The notes under the pieces were generated by a model, which did no database searches, was not told where the DNA came from, and was given only the letters and a program-made list of their open reading frames with translations. A stretch of 64,000 bases of DNA from Candidatus Saccharimonadota bacterium (GTDB lineage Bacteria > Patescibacteriota > Saccharimonadia > Saccharimonadales > Saccharimonadaceae): contig JAUNNB010000004.1 of NCBI GenBank assembly GCA_030531645.1, positions 1 to 64,000 on the forward strand. The letters run 5' to 3'. Below, piece by piece: positions 4,001 to 31,165 of this stretch (position 1 is its first letter; every line of letters begins with the position of its first letter). A program made the translations under genes and the position numbers.

Positions 4001-5528
4001 TAATGGCGAGATTTCGATGAATCTTGGTCCAGTTTCAACAACTCAAGCTGGCGAAGTAGTAGATGTGGCTGGTGCAGTGAACGATGGTAGAATCAAGATT
4101 GCACTTTCACTTACGAAGGAAGCACAAGGTCACCCAATTATTATTGATGCAGTGCCAAATGCAAATGGTGGACTTTCGGCAATTTCTGATAACCCAATGA
4201 TTCGTGAAATGCTTGCGAATGGCGATTACTCGACAATGGAAGTCTTCATTGATCAGGGTGTTGATAGTAATGGTGTGCTCCAGGCAATGACACTTGCAAC
4301 ATCTGTTGGTCATGGTGCAGCGGCAGATACTATGTTTACTGAAGCTGTAACGACTAAGTTGCCGGATACAGTTGAACAATTGTTCTCCGTGACGGCAACT
4401 GTACCAAATGAAGAAGCAGCACATAATATGATGACGTTGATGGGTATTCCACTTGTTGGCCGTAAAGGTATGACAATTGGTAAAGGTCGTGTGGTTTCTG
4501 GTACGCCTGCACCGACTCCAGCTCCGACTGGTAATGGTGGCGGCGAAGCTCCGGCTCCAGCACCGATCCCTACTCCAGAAGAGCCAACCGGCAATGGTGG
4601 TGGCGAAGCTCCGGCTCCAGAACCAGCTCCGGAACCATCTCCTGAACCTGCGCCTGCTCCATCACCAGAACCAGCTCCGGCTCCAAGTCCTGAGCAACCA
4701 ACTGATACTGGAGAAACTGGTAATGAACCTGCACCAATTTTCCAACCACCTCAGGTAGTCGTTCCTGGTTCAACTGAAGTTGCTACGGCTGGCGCTCCAA
4801 CTGAAGCTCCTGTGGCTGAAATCCCTGCGATTGAACAGAATCCAGAAGCGGACATTCCGCAAATTGAGACTGCTCCAACTCCGCTTGGATTACCACTTCA
4901 TGAAACCCCAGAAGCTGCACCATCAGCGGAACAGCTTAGCTATGAAGATATCGCTGAAGACTTCAATGAAGAAGCTGAAAACGATGCAAGCTGGGAGAAG
5001 AATTTGGAGAGCGGCATGTTTAATGGCAACATCCATCTAATTGGTGGTGCTAACAAGCATGTTTTGGAACGCCAGATGCGTCAGCTTTATCAGTATCGTC
5101 AAGAAGGTCGCGTATCTCAGGATGATTTCCAGAGATTGGTGGCTGAGATTTCAACGAAGTTACGCAATAATCGTAGAGAAATGATTAGGCGCGAAGCTGA
5201 TGAGAGATTGAGACTTGAAATGGATCGCCGTGCGAATACTGGCGAGCCAGCAATGACCGAAGAAGAACAGGATGCCTACAGGCAGGCGAGGGCACAGGAA
5301 TTCTCTGAAGTTCCAGCGACTCGTGCTGATGTTCCTGGCACACAGTTCTCGATTAGGCCAGGTAGACGCCAGGCAGACGGAAGCTTGAAGGGCGTGCCTT
5401 ATATCGACCAGCTTCTTGATTACTACGAACAAGATTTCGCAGAAAGAATGGCAGAGGCCGAAAGAAGAGCGCGACGTGAAGCGGCAGAGGCGGCGGCAGC
5501 AGCCCAAGGCGAGGCGCAAACTGCGTAA
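1020..5528 (+). CDS. Giant 1502-residue repetitive Glu/Pro/Ala-rich protein, function unknown
   Basis: No known catalytic domain is recognised. The N-terminus (about 15-60) is a predicted coiled coil without signal peptide. An acidic Pro-rich region follows. Residues about 218-325 hold two copies of a ~35-residue repeat containing RGYSDEQIEYA / RGYTDEQIDDA and EPEG. Glu/Asp/Lys-rich sequence follows, then a mixed globular region. Two Gly/Ala-rich hydrophobic stretches lie near residues 637-690 and 847-870 and could enter a membrane. Residues about 1160-1240 are a Pro-Ala-Glu linker with a duplicated GNGGGEAPAP unit. The C-terminus is a charged coiled coil ending in an Ala-rich tail. The start has a GGAGG site. 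A surface or envelope-spanning role is possible but unproven. A convergent terminator separates it from the ABC permease. Confidence 0.85.
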   Translation: MANGEMPPSGSTNNEELEQVTAEQDTKIAENDQLREEINRLIEKFGKEKVFEAFTSPIESGMDTATSTQLAEIGIVSDLPAVASENEFLPPAVIEQAGVQAPAVPELPGPVEETSTEVAPFDGGVAEVLDADGNVIETSTWRNIGPTYKPEPADIFYEGESAEVPPTTYKPEPAEAIEATEPLGIEQKPEDDEAGIAETTGENPEEPVKDYSNISESMRAIWKDMASRGYSDEQIEYAISEGMNEPEGDEYAQFLMQVVPDGGPRELNFEDEKPAAKMTLEEFMRARGYTDEQIDDARERGFDEPEGQDFERYLGEVVPLGTPETKAEEPADAEGEPEGTGEEPEGDPSKAGAAETEPEDKEDEEKEKEFEIDPEKMIAGALGVEKEMDSIAARVAIKMFEGERDKKGKLGKLLWGISDTFMHQYRMQKYTTQAKQLIEFKYGKNRDGLTEDQLVDIQAKVDELVPDNVLNVSDAGFARFVKADVYGYEEAMLHEGEMKETYSYVYDENGNKKLVKKTYENGEMKTEDVDTESAQGKAFAQLHSAIESYAVSGDMDDFRENMKDVRRQLEAAGMSEQALSIDNYEKVAENARIYYEHSGDMDKVMAGFAYINGVANRDIRTERHQKGVERVTNALATRGRGLVPAGAIAIGVGVGVMIAKTTTSTVARAIAPGVGGAISASIWAGAAESANVAGEIVDAARLAATGETTGDTKYDERLRQVMYETTSATEYSAKLGNYLDDNGNLREGYKVDELIADLAQVDAAIRMSDSKGIDLISFSSGDIDTIESEREDLDFKRAQLKAALKKSGVDMSGYEAAAMEATAEFQADIDAKDKLRKGLRRSRALKKGAIAGVTSLATAVISQEVMAALPGVGDNRYGVVDSLRGEQLQEGQSTTSIMEASSWIKRVISGPEEPSVTVLGSQFTADQIEQFSNDPTYTVTEAGSRTIPGETITEERQVGLADYIKENGTRFSRHWANNGTQVSDGNELAARISNNGEISMNLGPVSTTQAGEVVDVAGAVNDGRIKIALSLTKEAQGHPIIIDAVPNANGGLSAISDNPMIREMLANGDYSTMEVFIDQGVDSNGVLQAMTLATSVGHGAAADTMFTEAVTTKLPDTVEQLFSVTATVPNEEAAHNMMTLMGIPLVGRKGMTIGKGRVVSGTPAPTPAPTGNGGGEAPAPAPIPTPEEPTGNGGGEAPAPEPAPEPSPEPAPAPSPEPAPAPSPEQPTDTGETGNEPAPIFQPPQVVVPGSTEVATAGAPTEAPVAEIPAIEQNPEADIPQIETAPTPLGLPLHETPEAAPSAEQLSYEDIAEDFNEEAENDASWEKNLESGMFNGNIHLIGGANKHVLERQMRQLYQYRQEGRVSQDDFQRLVAEISTKLRNNRREMIRREADERLRLEMDRRANTGEPAMTEEEQDAYRQARAQEFSEVPATRADVPGTQFSIRPGRRQADGSLKGVPYIDQLLDYYEQDFAERMAEAERRARREAAEAAAAAQGEAQTA
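1663..1990 (+). repeat. Two-copy repeat encoding the RGY-[ST]-DEQI motif
   Basis: Copies at about 1663-1815 and 1850-1990 encode ~40-residue units sharing M(R)A-x-GY-[ST]-DEQI, a Gly-rich turn, EPEG and a [QE]VVP-x-G end. The DNA has diverged more than the protein, which points to an old duplication under selection. Confidence 0.7.
4525..4700 (+). repeat. Pro-Ala-Glu low-complexity repeats in the giant protein
   Basis: Two near-identical units (about 4528-4560 and 4588-4620) encode GNGGGEAPAP. They are followed by alternating PEPAPAPSPEP-type dipeptides. This is probably an extended flexible linker. Confidence 0.7.
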
Positions 5529-29505: not shown

Positions 29506-30387
29506 ATGGGGAAAGACATAGAGAATTCGGCTAACATCAACACAGATGTGTCTATGTCTGGTATCAAGATGGAGGCGAATGCCATTGGCCTTGAAAGACC
29601 ACTGGTATGCTTGGTAGAGAGAATACTTAATCCAGATGACATACGTAAGCGAGGTATAGCTAGAAACGAAAATAAAATCGGAGTAAAAACCCGTAAGATA
29701 GTGGGGAGATCTCTTGATTATGAATATAAGAAATTATTAAGGGGTGAGGCTAACTTCGATGATATTTTGTCAAAAGCAAATCAGGTGCTGAAACAATATT
29801 CACATAGAGAGGATACAATCAATGAGATTGATGATGATTGGTTGTATAGATTTTGTGATACTGCAAGAGATACTTCAGACGAAATGATAAAAGATATTCT
29901 AGCAAATATATTGTGCGGAAAGTTGATGGATTGCAAGAGCTCAAATAGAAGGTTGTTGGATTTTCTAAAAAGTACTAACAAGGATGAACTTAATACATTT
30001 TTTAGGTTTGCAAGTATTTCGAGTAATATTGGGCTTTATCATATGGGTAGTGCACTAGCTCCTGGGAGGTTGATGAAATATGGATTACCTCCGTGTGATA
30101 TATTTAGGTTATCAGATGTAGGATTGATTAGTGCAGATAATATGAGGTGTATCCCGTTGGAAGATTCTAATACCATAGAGTATATGGATAGAAAAATTAG
30201 GATTACGAATAAGAATGGACAAAAGATGGAATTGAACATATACCAATTAACTGGGATGGGGGAACAATTATATAATTTCTCTGAACCGTATATTAAGTAT
30301 GGTGCCAAGAGGGAACAATATTTTAGGGATTTCAGAAAATACCTTGAGGATAGAGGATGTTCTGTGATTGAGAATAAGATTGGTTAA
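29506..30387 (+). CDS. Protein of unknown function, resembles DUF2806
   Basis: 293 residues, no signal peptide or TM segment. The stretch IDDDWLYRFCDTARDTSDEM followed by an ILANILCGKL-like helix and RRLLDFLK resembles the DUF2806 pattern (Asp-rich helix, then a Gly-Glu/Lys turn and RTL-like segment). The assignment is from motif memory. The C-terminal part (about 190-290) contains beta strands ending in YFRDFRKYLEDRGC. No function is known for the family; related proteins occur in accessory regions. GAAAGGAT precedes the start and the gene is followed by a separate promoter for the RNA/DUF3800 unit. Confidence 0.7.
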   Translation: MGKDIENSANINTDVSMSGIKMEANAIGLERPLVCLVERILNPDDIRKRGIARNENKIGVKTRKIVGRSLDYEYKKLLRGEANFDDILSKANQVLKQYSHREDTINEIDDDWLYRFCDTARDTSDEMIKDILANILCGKLMDCKSSNRRLLDFLKSTNKDELNTFFRFASISSNIGLYHMGSALAPGRLMKYGLPPCDIFRLSDVGLISADNMRCIPLEDSNTIEYMDRKIRITNKNGQKMELNIYQLTGMGEQLYNFSEPYIKYGAKREQYFRDFRKYLEDRGCSVIENKIG

Positions 30388-30410: not shown

Positions 30411-30439
30411 TTGAAAAAAGGCGTCCTGTATGGTATAAT
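30411..30439 (+). promoter_or_regulatory. Promoter of the DUF3800-associated RNA
   Basis: TTGAAA (30411-30416), a 17-nt spacer and an extended TGG-TATAAT (30434-30439). The predicted start is near 30446, ten nucleotides before the first helix of the RNA. Confidence 0.75.
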
Positions 30440-30445
30440 GTGCTT

Positions 30446-30517
30446 AGACGTTAGATCGGCACCGAAAAGTCACCGGATGGTGGCCGGCCCGCAAGGGATA
30501 GGTGCCGACCCGTTTTT
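30446..30517 (+). ncRNA. Structured RNA upstream of a DUF3800 gene
   Basis: A perfect 8-bp closing helix (30456-30463 with 30501-30508) encloses two inner hairpins. One is CCC-GCAA-GGG (30488-30497) with a GNRA tetraloop. The other is CACC-GGAT-GGTG (30471-30482), or alternatively CCGG (30473-30476) with CCGG (30484-30487). A T5 run follows 4 nt after the closing helix. The next gene encodes a DUF3800 protein. Families of RNA motifs called DUF3800 motifs, found before DUF3800 genes, are known; which family this belongs to, if any, is unverified. The short T run could also act as an attenuator. Confidence 0.7.
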
Positions 30518-30541
30518 ACAAACTTTTACAGGAGGTACAGG

Positions 30542-31165
30542 GTGGCTGATTATATATATGTAGATGATTCTGGTGATTCTGGGTTGAAGGAAACGAGTTC
30601 GAGGTATTTATTTGCCGTAGCTGTTGTTGTACGTGACGAAAAGATAAAAAACGAATTATCTGATGCGATTTATTCATTTCGCAAGAATTTAGGCTGGAAT
30701 GACGGCGACGAATTGAAATTTAATAAGACGAATCGTAAAAAATACATAAAACAGTTTATAAAGGGTGTAAGTTGTTTTGACTTTGAAATTTATGCTGCTG
30801 TGTTAGACAAAGAGAGGCTAAATTTAGCAGAGAAGCGTGAATTGAGCAGTATAAAACCATTCATATTTTTGACAAGTTTTCTACTTAGTAAATTGAAGAT
30901 GAGCGAGCCTGATGTATATATAGATGGAGCTTATGGGCCGAAATACGTTAAACAGTCTCGCACCTATCTCAGACGGCAACTGAAGGAGCAAAAAATCATG
31001 AATTGTTCATTTCGTTTCGTAGATTCACGAAAAAATGATTTAATTCAATTGGCCGATATCGCGGCAGGTTCAATTGCTAGATTGTACACAGATACATCTA
31101 GAACAAGTGACGACTATGTGAAAATGTTTGGTGATAAAATAAAGAAAGTTTATGTATGGCGGTAG
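30542..31165 (+). CDS. DUF3800 domain protein
   Basis: 207 residues. The acidic start IYVDDSGDSG (D8, D9, D12) is typical of DUF3800, as are GDELKFNK (about 58-65) and the C-terminal DLIQLADIAAGSIARL, where Asp residues would complete a metal site. An RNase H-like nuclease fold has been suggested for the family; the function is not established. Translation starts at GTG with a strong AGGAGG site 6 nt away. The gene follows a structured RNA with its own promoter and overlaps the acyltransferase gene by 10 bp. Confidence 0.9.
   Translation: MADYIYVDDSGDSGLKETSSRYLFAVAVVVRDEKIKNELSDAIYSFRKNLGWNDGDELKFNKTNRKKYIKQFIKGVSCFDFEIYAAVLDKERLNLAEKRELSSIKPFIFLTSFLLSKLKMSEPDVYIDGAYGPKYVKQSRTYLRRQLKEQKIMNCSFRFVDSRKNDLIQLADIAAGSIARLYTDTSRTSDDYVKMFGDKIKKVYVWR

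Follow-up and report, generated by a model that had tools for sequence, protein, structure and literature searches.

The small RNA encoded just before a DUF3800 gene in the window (the whole stretch of DNA analysed, 64,000 nucleotides, from a gut Saccharibacterium) is a further member of a known RNA family, and its layout is a variant. Comparison with about 80 relatives suggests that the shape of this RNA restrains the enzyme encoded beside it, much as the RNA member of a toxin-antitoxin system does with its toxin. DUF3800 RNAs have been catalogued without known function, and none is reported in the literature found on DUF3800, a scope outside which the 2017 source paper of the motifs lies. 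The RNA class itself was already known; the additions of this analysis are a rule of convergent arrangement, the exceptions to it and an asymmetry in the occurrence of orphan RNAs. Hypotheses that are indistinguishable at the common convergent loci can be told apart at rearranged ones such as that of the window.

Promoter, RNA and gene in the window

The genome to which the window belongs has a size of 771 kb in 12 contigs and is 99% complete. The following features are found, the start and end of the transcript being predictions, the start from the promoter.

30411 to 30439, forward strand: sigma-70 promoter of the RNA, TTGAAA-17-TATAAT with TG before the -10 box, 11 of 12 consensus matches
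30447 to 30520, forward strand: predicted small RNA transcript (covariance-model match at 30448 to 30520)
30453 to 30515, forward strand: DUF3800-IX RNA (RF02968), three-way junction, 48.8 bits against a cut-off of 36.8
30456 to 30463, forward strand: 5' side of the closing helix P1, 8 bp, pairing with 30501 to 30508 (sequence, fold, covariation in relatives)
30501 to 30508, forward strand: 3' side of the closing helix P1 (sequence, fold)
30469 to 30484, forward strand: hairpin P2, GUCACC / GGUGGC with the loop GGAU and a conserved U-G pair (sequence, fold, covariation)
30488 to 30497, forward strand: hairpin P3, CCC GCAA GGG (sequence, fold, covariation)
30513 to 30517, forward strand: T5 run 3' of the RNA and upstream of the gene, possibly a partial terminator (sequence)
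30530 to 30535, forward strand: Shine-Dalgarno sequence AGGAGG of the DUF3800 gene (sequence)
30542 to 31165, forward strand: DUF3800 gene, 207 aa, GTG start, PF12686, predicted RNase HII-like fold with acidic residues D8, D9, D128 and D172

Promoter, RNA, T run, Shine-Dalgarno sequence and gene lie in this order on one line within 130 bp. A sequence-only reading of this DNA had described these parts, and its description is borne out. The boxes TTGAAA (30411 to 30416) and TATAAT (30434 to 30439), separated by a spacer of 17 nt, form the best of six promoter-like sites in the region, where 1.2 are expected, and most RNAs of the relatives are preceded by promoters of a like kind. The RNA of about 70 nt with a perfect 8-bp closing helix, two inner hairpins, a GCAA loop and a trailing T5 is seen where it had been placed, and the gene with a GTG start and a strong Shine-Dalgarno sequence belongs to PF12686 (E = 1.2e-14; 55.7 bits against a gathering score of 21), no other family, including Abi_2 (AbiD/F), being matched in it. 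The same reading had taken the RNA for a DUF3800-associated one and proposed an Infernal search, in which the match to RF02968 covers the full length of the RNA (E = 1.8e-7 over the window). Our own covariance model gives 62.0 bits for the span 30448 to 30520 and finds no second RNA site in the window, the RNA being a single unit.

The standard terminator pattern was not recognized at the 3' end of the RNA in a scan of the window, because a 4-nt spacer parts the 8-bp helix from the T run. This spacer is partly closed in the fold computed with flanks, and termination at the T5 run is plausible from the sequence. A DUF2806 gene (PF10987, E = 6.7e-18) lies at 29506 to 30387, directly upstream of the RNA promoter and on the same strand. 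The neighbourhood in the window consists mainly of acyltransferase and surface-glycan genes, and a defence island is not clear.

Fold, strand and covariation of the RNA

The folding energy of the window RNA is modestly unusual (z = -2.1; 6 of 200 shuffles are as good), and the real evidence for the RNA is the family match and the covariation rather than the folding energy alone. RNAalifold applied to 30 RNAs from whole genomes yields the three-way junction, with double changes in 13 of 17 pairs. For 79 RNAs from loci picked by protein alone, double changes are present in 15 of 17 pairs, and the score is matched by none of 500 shuffles; as this alignment was fitted to the model, slid controls are a fairer comparison than shuffles, and in these the covariation score is at most 0.13 against 0.68. 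The sequence-only reading had staked its claim on a match to a DUF3800 RNA model and on covariation in the helices among relatives, and both were found. The junction bases GAA and UA are almost invariant across the RNAs, and the window RNA has the conserved GAA and UA(GG) of the DUF3800-IX junction. At paired positions 199 G-U cells are found against 34 A-C cells, an excess showing that the structured strand is the one described for the RNA. A promoter with at least 9 of 12 matches is present within 50 nt upstream of the RNA in 56 of 73 loci, compared with 3 of 68 control stretches. The transcript predicted in the window and in the relatives comprises the fold, a short 5' tail and a U run, lacking the variable guide segment of an RNA-guided nuclease.

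The conserved stretch might alternatively act as DNA, for example as the site at which a mobile cassette carrying the DUF3800 gene ends or recombines. Paired RNA copies around a gene in two genomes (G117 and G163), the exchange of a gene as far as its stop codon between G177 and G163, the location of the G101 RNAs at contig ends and the patchy spread would fit such a feature. It is nevertheless very unlikely, since the promoters are correctly placed, the bias of G-U over A-C reflects selection on one RNA strand, and the outer copies belong to other modules instead of being matched ends. The outer RNA in G163 is alike the RNA of a module in another species (G439) and is thus an orphan, which has weakened the case for cassette ends flanking the gene in G117 and G163.

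Convergent arrangement among relatives

Loci were gathered by the DUF3800 protein profile alone, ignoring the RNA, 80 of them from the GTDB genomes and one from viral contigs (81 in total), the hosts including Patescibacteria, Nitrospira, Legionella, Burkholderiales, Actinomycetota, Planctomycetes, Elusimicrobia and Clostridia. In 79 of the 81 the RNA is convergent with the DUF3800 gene and usually has a strong promoter, and its 3' end is located at or near the stop codon, from 45 nt inside to 84 nt beyond it. In 76 loci the model detects the RNA where the gene ends, on the other strand, eight of these matches being weak (E = 0.01 to 0.5) yet located exactly at the expected site, and inspection by eye added three further convergent RNAs, which are diverged versions that have a promoter and a terminator. 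In one remaining locus (L073, on the same contig as G023) the RNA is codirectional and downstream of the gene, and the other (L070) is unreadable; 80 of the 81 loci thus have the RNA at the gene. This convergent rule was found in the present analysis, Rfam having no such criterion. The sequence-only reading, which had put the RNA directly before the gene, is therefore right for the window and does not hold generally. The profile was seeded from RNA-linked genes, so that the statement that the gene never occurs without the RNA is valid for this clade only; more distant DUF3800s are without a recognized RNA. Because some genomes with G handles are the same as some GTDB records, the two surveys are not independent of each other. 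Ten loci of another RNA class, DUF3800-V, were examined; a DUF3800 gene was found at eight, and the RNA is convergent with it in each of these.

Because the RNA 3' ends lie near the stop codon, an mRNA extended by read-through would include the antisense of the RNA, and control of a type I-like kind by pairing of the convergent RNA with the 3' end of the DUF3800 mRNA could be imagined. Such control is already disfavoured and has little probability, as the structure is conserved through compensatory changes and both the window and G023 retain the RNA without antisense overlap. Type I toxin-antitoxin systems are also remote from the window in that a 207-aa RNase H-fold protein takes the place of a small membrane toxin. 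Control only in cis, with the window RNA serving the DUF3800 mRNA as leader or attenuator and the protein perhaps binding this RNA for autoregulation, would suit the collinear order within 130 bp. In 79 of the 81 relatives, however, convergence precludes a leader role of the RNA, and this majority argues against leader control as a general mechanism; the explanation is improbable. Cis control could be an added layer at the window, as is read-through control for AbiF.

At one locus (L134) a DUF3800-IX RNA (4650 to 4718) at the 3' end of the gene is followed, about 120 bp apart, by a DUF3800-V RNA (4840 to 4935), indicating that different DUF3800 RNA classes can adjoin one another. Of 60 loci scanned, 11 have a tRNA gene no more than about 500 bp away from the module (L065, L066, L075, L080, L093, L097, L103, L106, L107, L112 and L117), possibly owing to an insertion preference. 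A complete convergent module is present on a contig classed as viral (L064; IMGVR_UViG_3300010163_003561). Scans of genome and viral collections with single DUF3800 sequences gave no match, a profile being needed; a DUF3800 of the window type was not found in phage records, and plasmid matches were distant only, mostly from Leptospira.

Rearranged loci

The window is a rare, rearranged exception to the convergent layout: its RNA lies upstream of the DUF3800 gene on the same strand. The full-length match above the curated cut-off, the three-way junction and the partner gene family are those of DUF3800-IX (RF02968), while the RNAs of the relatives are convergent. The junction of RNA and gene in the window was not found in any other genome of the genus, among 174 searched, nor in viral contigs. 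An assembly error that conceals a convergent locus would account for this absence, but is extremely improbable, since the junction lies 30 kb inside an 84-kb contig, the gene has a good Shine-Dalgarno sequence, no trace of an RNA is seen where its 3' end passes into the next gene, and G023 is an independent case of a non-convergent order.

The protein nearest to that of the window is encoded at an Oscillospiraceae locus, L065 (40% identity), and the nearest RNA (64%) is at the same locus, which is convergent. Since RNA and protein are both closest to L065, the pair probably moved together, to judge from the sequences, with the order changed without a swap of partners. Distances between RNAs and between proteins are correlated (Mantel r = 0.73; largest permuted value 0.16). 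In the window and in G023 the RNA fold is retained though its position relative to the gene differs, and the RNA therefore needs neither antisense overlap nor a leader position. Taken together, the rearranged loci argue against antisense overlap and against general leader control, and action via the shape of the RNA is indicated.

The DUF3800 protein

DUF3800 has been described as having an RNase H fold (PMC10910872; PMC12669027). No solved structure of a DUF3800 protein was found by sequence, and an AlphaFold2 model (mean pLDDT 93.7) was compared with RNase HII (1uax), giving Z = 12.4 over 158 residues with an rmsd of 2.9 and 13% identity. The acidic residues D8, D/E9, D128 and D172 are conserved, including in the window, and occupy the strand and helix positions expected of an RNase H active site, an equivalence that was judged from these positions and not from a superposition. 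Both the predicted fold and the acidic active-site positions are thus as in the RNase H superfamily. The strand 1 motif, Asp-Asp/Glu-Ser-Gly, resembles the Asp-Glu-Ala-Gly motif of RNase HII, whereas the identity is low and the DUF3800 protein has an RNA partner. From this model, the protein is taken to be a working nuclease.

Mode of action and known systems

In the preferred explanation, which draws on the analogy with AbiF/RCd22, the folded RNA would bind and restrain the nuclease in an RNA-antitoxin-like module. This explanation has about an even chance of being right. In Clostridioides difficile AbiF/RCd22 (RF03085, abiF motif), which has the order of the window, the RNA has been proven to bind directly to the toxic protein and neutralize it (PMC12373285). 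The mode of action that we infer, including nuclease activity, binding, inhibition, toxicity, termination and trigger, would be as follows. The three-way-junction RNA of about 70 nt would be produced in excess from its own promoter and would bind the DUF3800 protein, a putative small RNase HII-fold nuclease, to hold it inactive, and the enzyme would be freed upon loss of the RNA, for example when transcription stops in phage attack. In the window, where the RNA comes first, the U run would let only some transcripts reach the nuclease gene, resulting in RNA excess. Of the RNA-regulated or RNA-inhibited enzyme suggested by the sequence-only reading, the RNA-inhibited one is favoured.

The RNA class, the promoters, the covarying structure on one fixed strand, the predicted RNase HII-like fold with conserved acidic residues and the co-inheritance of RNA and protein, all computed here, support the antitoxin-like explanation, as do the presence of the RNA at the gene in 80 of 81 loci, the fold kept in rearranged loci and the RNAs that outlive the gene. 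Counting against it, co-inheritance is expected for any adjacent pair, distant DUF3800s are without a recognized RNA, the orphan RNAs are perhaps leftovers, and no clear defence island surrounds the window module.

The window and AbiF/RCd22 share a promoter, a structured RNA, a T run and a toxin-like gene, and both RNA classes come from one comparative survey and may act via protein binding. They differ in that the window protein is RNase HII-like, not Abi_2/HEPN, and that one RNA unit is present instead of two repeats; binding has been shown for AbiF/RCd22 and is predicted in the window. Type III toxin-antitoxin systems (ToxIN, CptIN, TenpIN) likewise have the RNA followed by the gene, with RNA excess by partial termination plausible. 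The window RNA, in contrast, is without tandem repeats, the DUF3800 family is normally convergent, and the protein is an RNase HII-like DUF3800 instead of a ToxN/AbiQ-type endoribonuclease. The window module should not be named a type III system because the repeats and the ToxN fold are absent.

RNAs without a DUF3800 gene

The nuclease hardly ever occurs without the RNA, whereas the RNA often occurs without the nuclease, which is the asymmetry shown by antitoxins. In the genome of the window, a second DUF3800-IX RNA (G000:C2:21619-21687, or L002:1501-1569, minus strand) has its own promoter and lacks an adjacent DUF3800 gene. This RNA adjoins the stop codon of an ORF (144 aa, no known family) that lies downstream of an HTH-SocA/Panacea gene. 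This genome also has a second, distant DUF3800 gene (L188; G000:C6:223931-224470; E = 5.2e-21 to the profile), at which no RNA was recognized by Rfam or our own model. Further RNAs without an adjoining DUF3800 gene are found elsewhere, and three genomes (G225, G177 and G101) yielded no DUF3800 at all, G101 being only 84% complete with its RNAs at contig ends. Remnants of the gene were sought beside orphan RNAs and are present in G012 alone, where about 50 codons are left; the RNA there is identical to that of an intact module in G044 at 66 of 67 positions, with flanks identical at 32 of 42 and 119 of 154 (76-77%). One RNA and its terminator are common to G177 and the closely related G163, which are 94% identical on one side, and the gene before this RNA differs up to the stop codon. 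The orphan RNAs could be recent leftovers.

These orphans count against the main rival, in which the RNA is a required cofactor or scaffold and forms with the protein an active ribonucleoprotein nuclease in defence or RNA processing. Near-obligate pairing, conserved junction bases and co-inheritance fit this rival equally well, and certain CRISPR loci have DUF3800 accessories, for which participation in interference or in the handling of crRNA has been proposed (PMC10910872; PMC12669027). The accessories of Cas12a2 and type VI-F loci share the domain and the RNase H fold with the window protein, whereas the window is without CRISPR components and its domain stands alone without TPR. A cofactor role is unlikely, as it leaves unexplained the intact RNAs with promoters that persist where DUF3800 is gone, and the transcript has no room for a variable guide segment.

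Extended beyond the window, the antitoxin-like explanation would make DUF3800 proteins and their structurally diverse RNAs a widespread class of normally convergent systems in which RNA restrains an RNase HII-fold toxin; lineages that have lost the nuclease would keep the RNA as protection against it, and the window locus would have changed over to the order seen in ToxIN and AbiF, with the RNA first. This wider proposal is tentative and falls somewhat short of an even chance. The antitoxin idea implies that cloned orphan RNAs should protect cells from the matching DUF3800 protein, and the orphans therefore offer a direct and cheap test of it; if it is confirmed, an RNase HII-fold enzyme joins the toxins restrained by RNA. 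Genes near orphan RNAs at three loci (L046, L051 and L056) include one for a DNA methylase-like protein (N6_Mtase/Eco57I) and others for Fic-domain proteins, a setting suggestive of defence or mobile islands.
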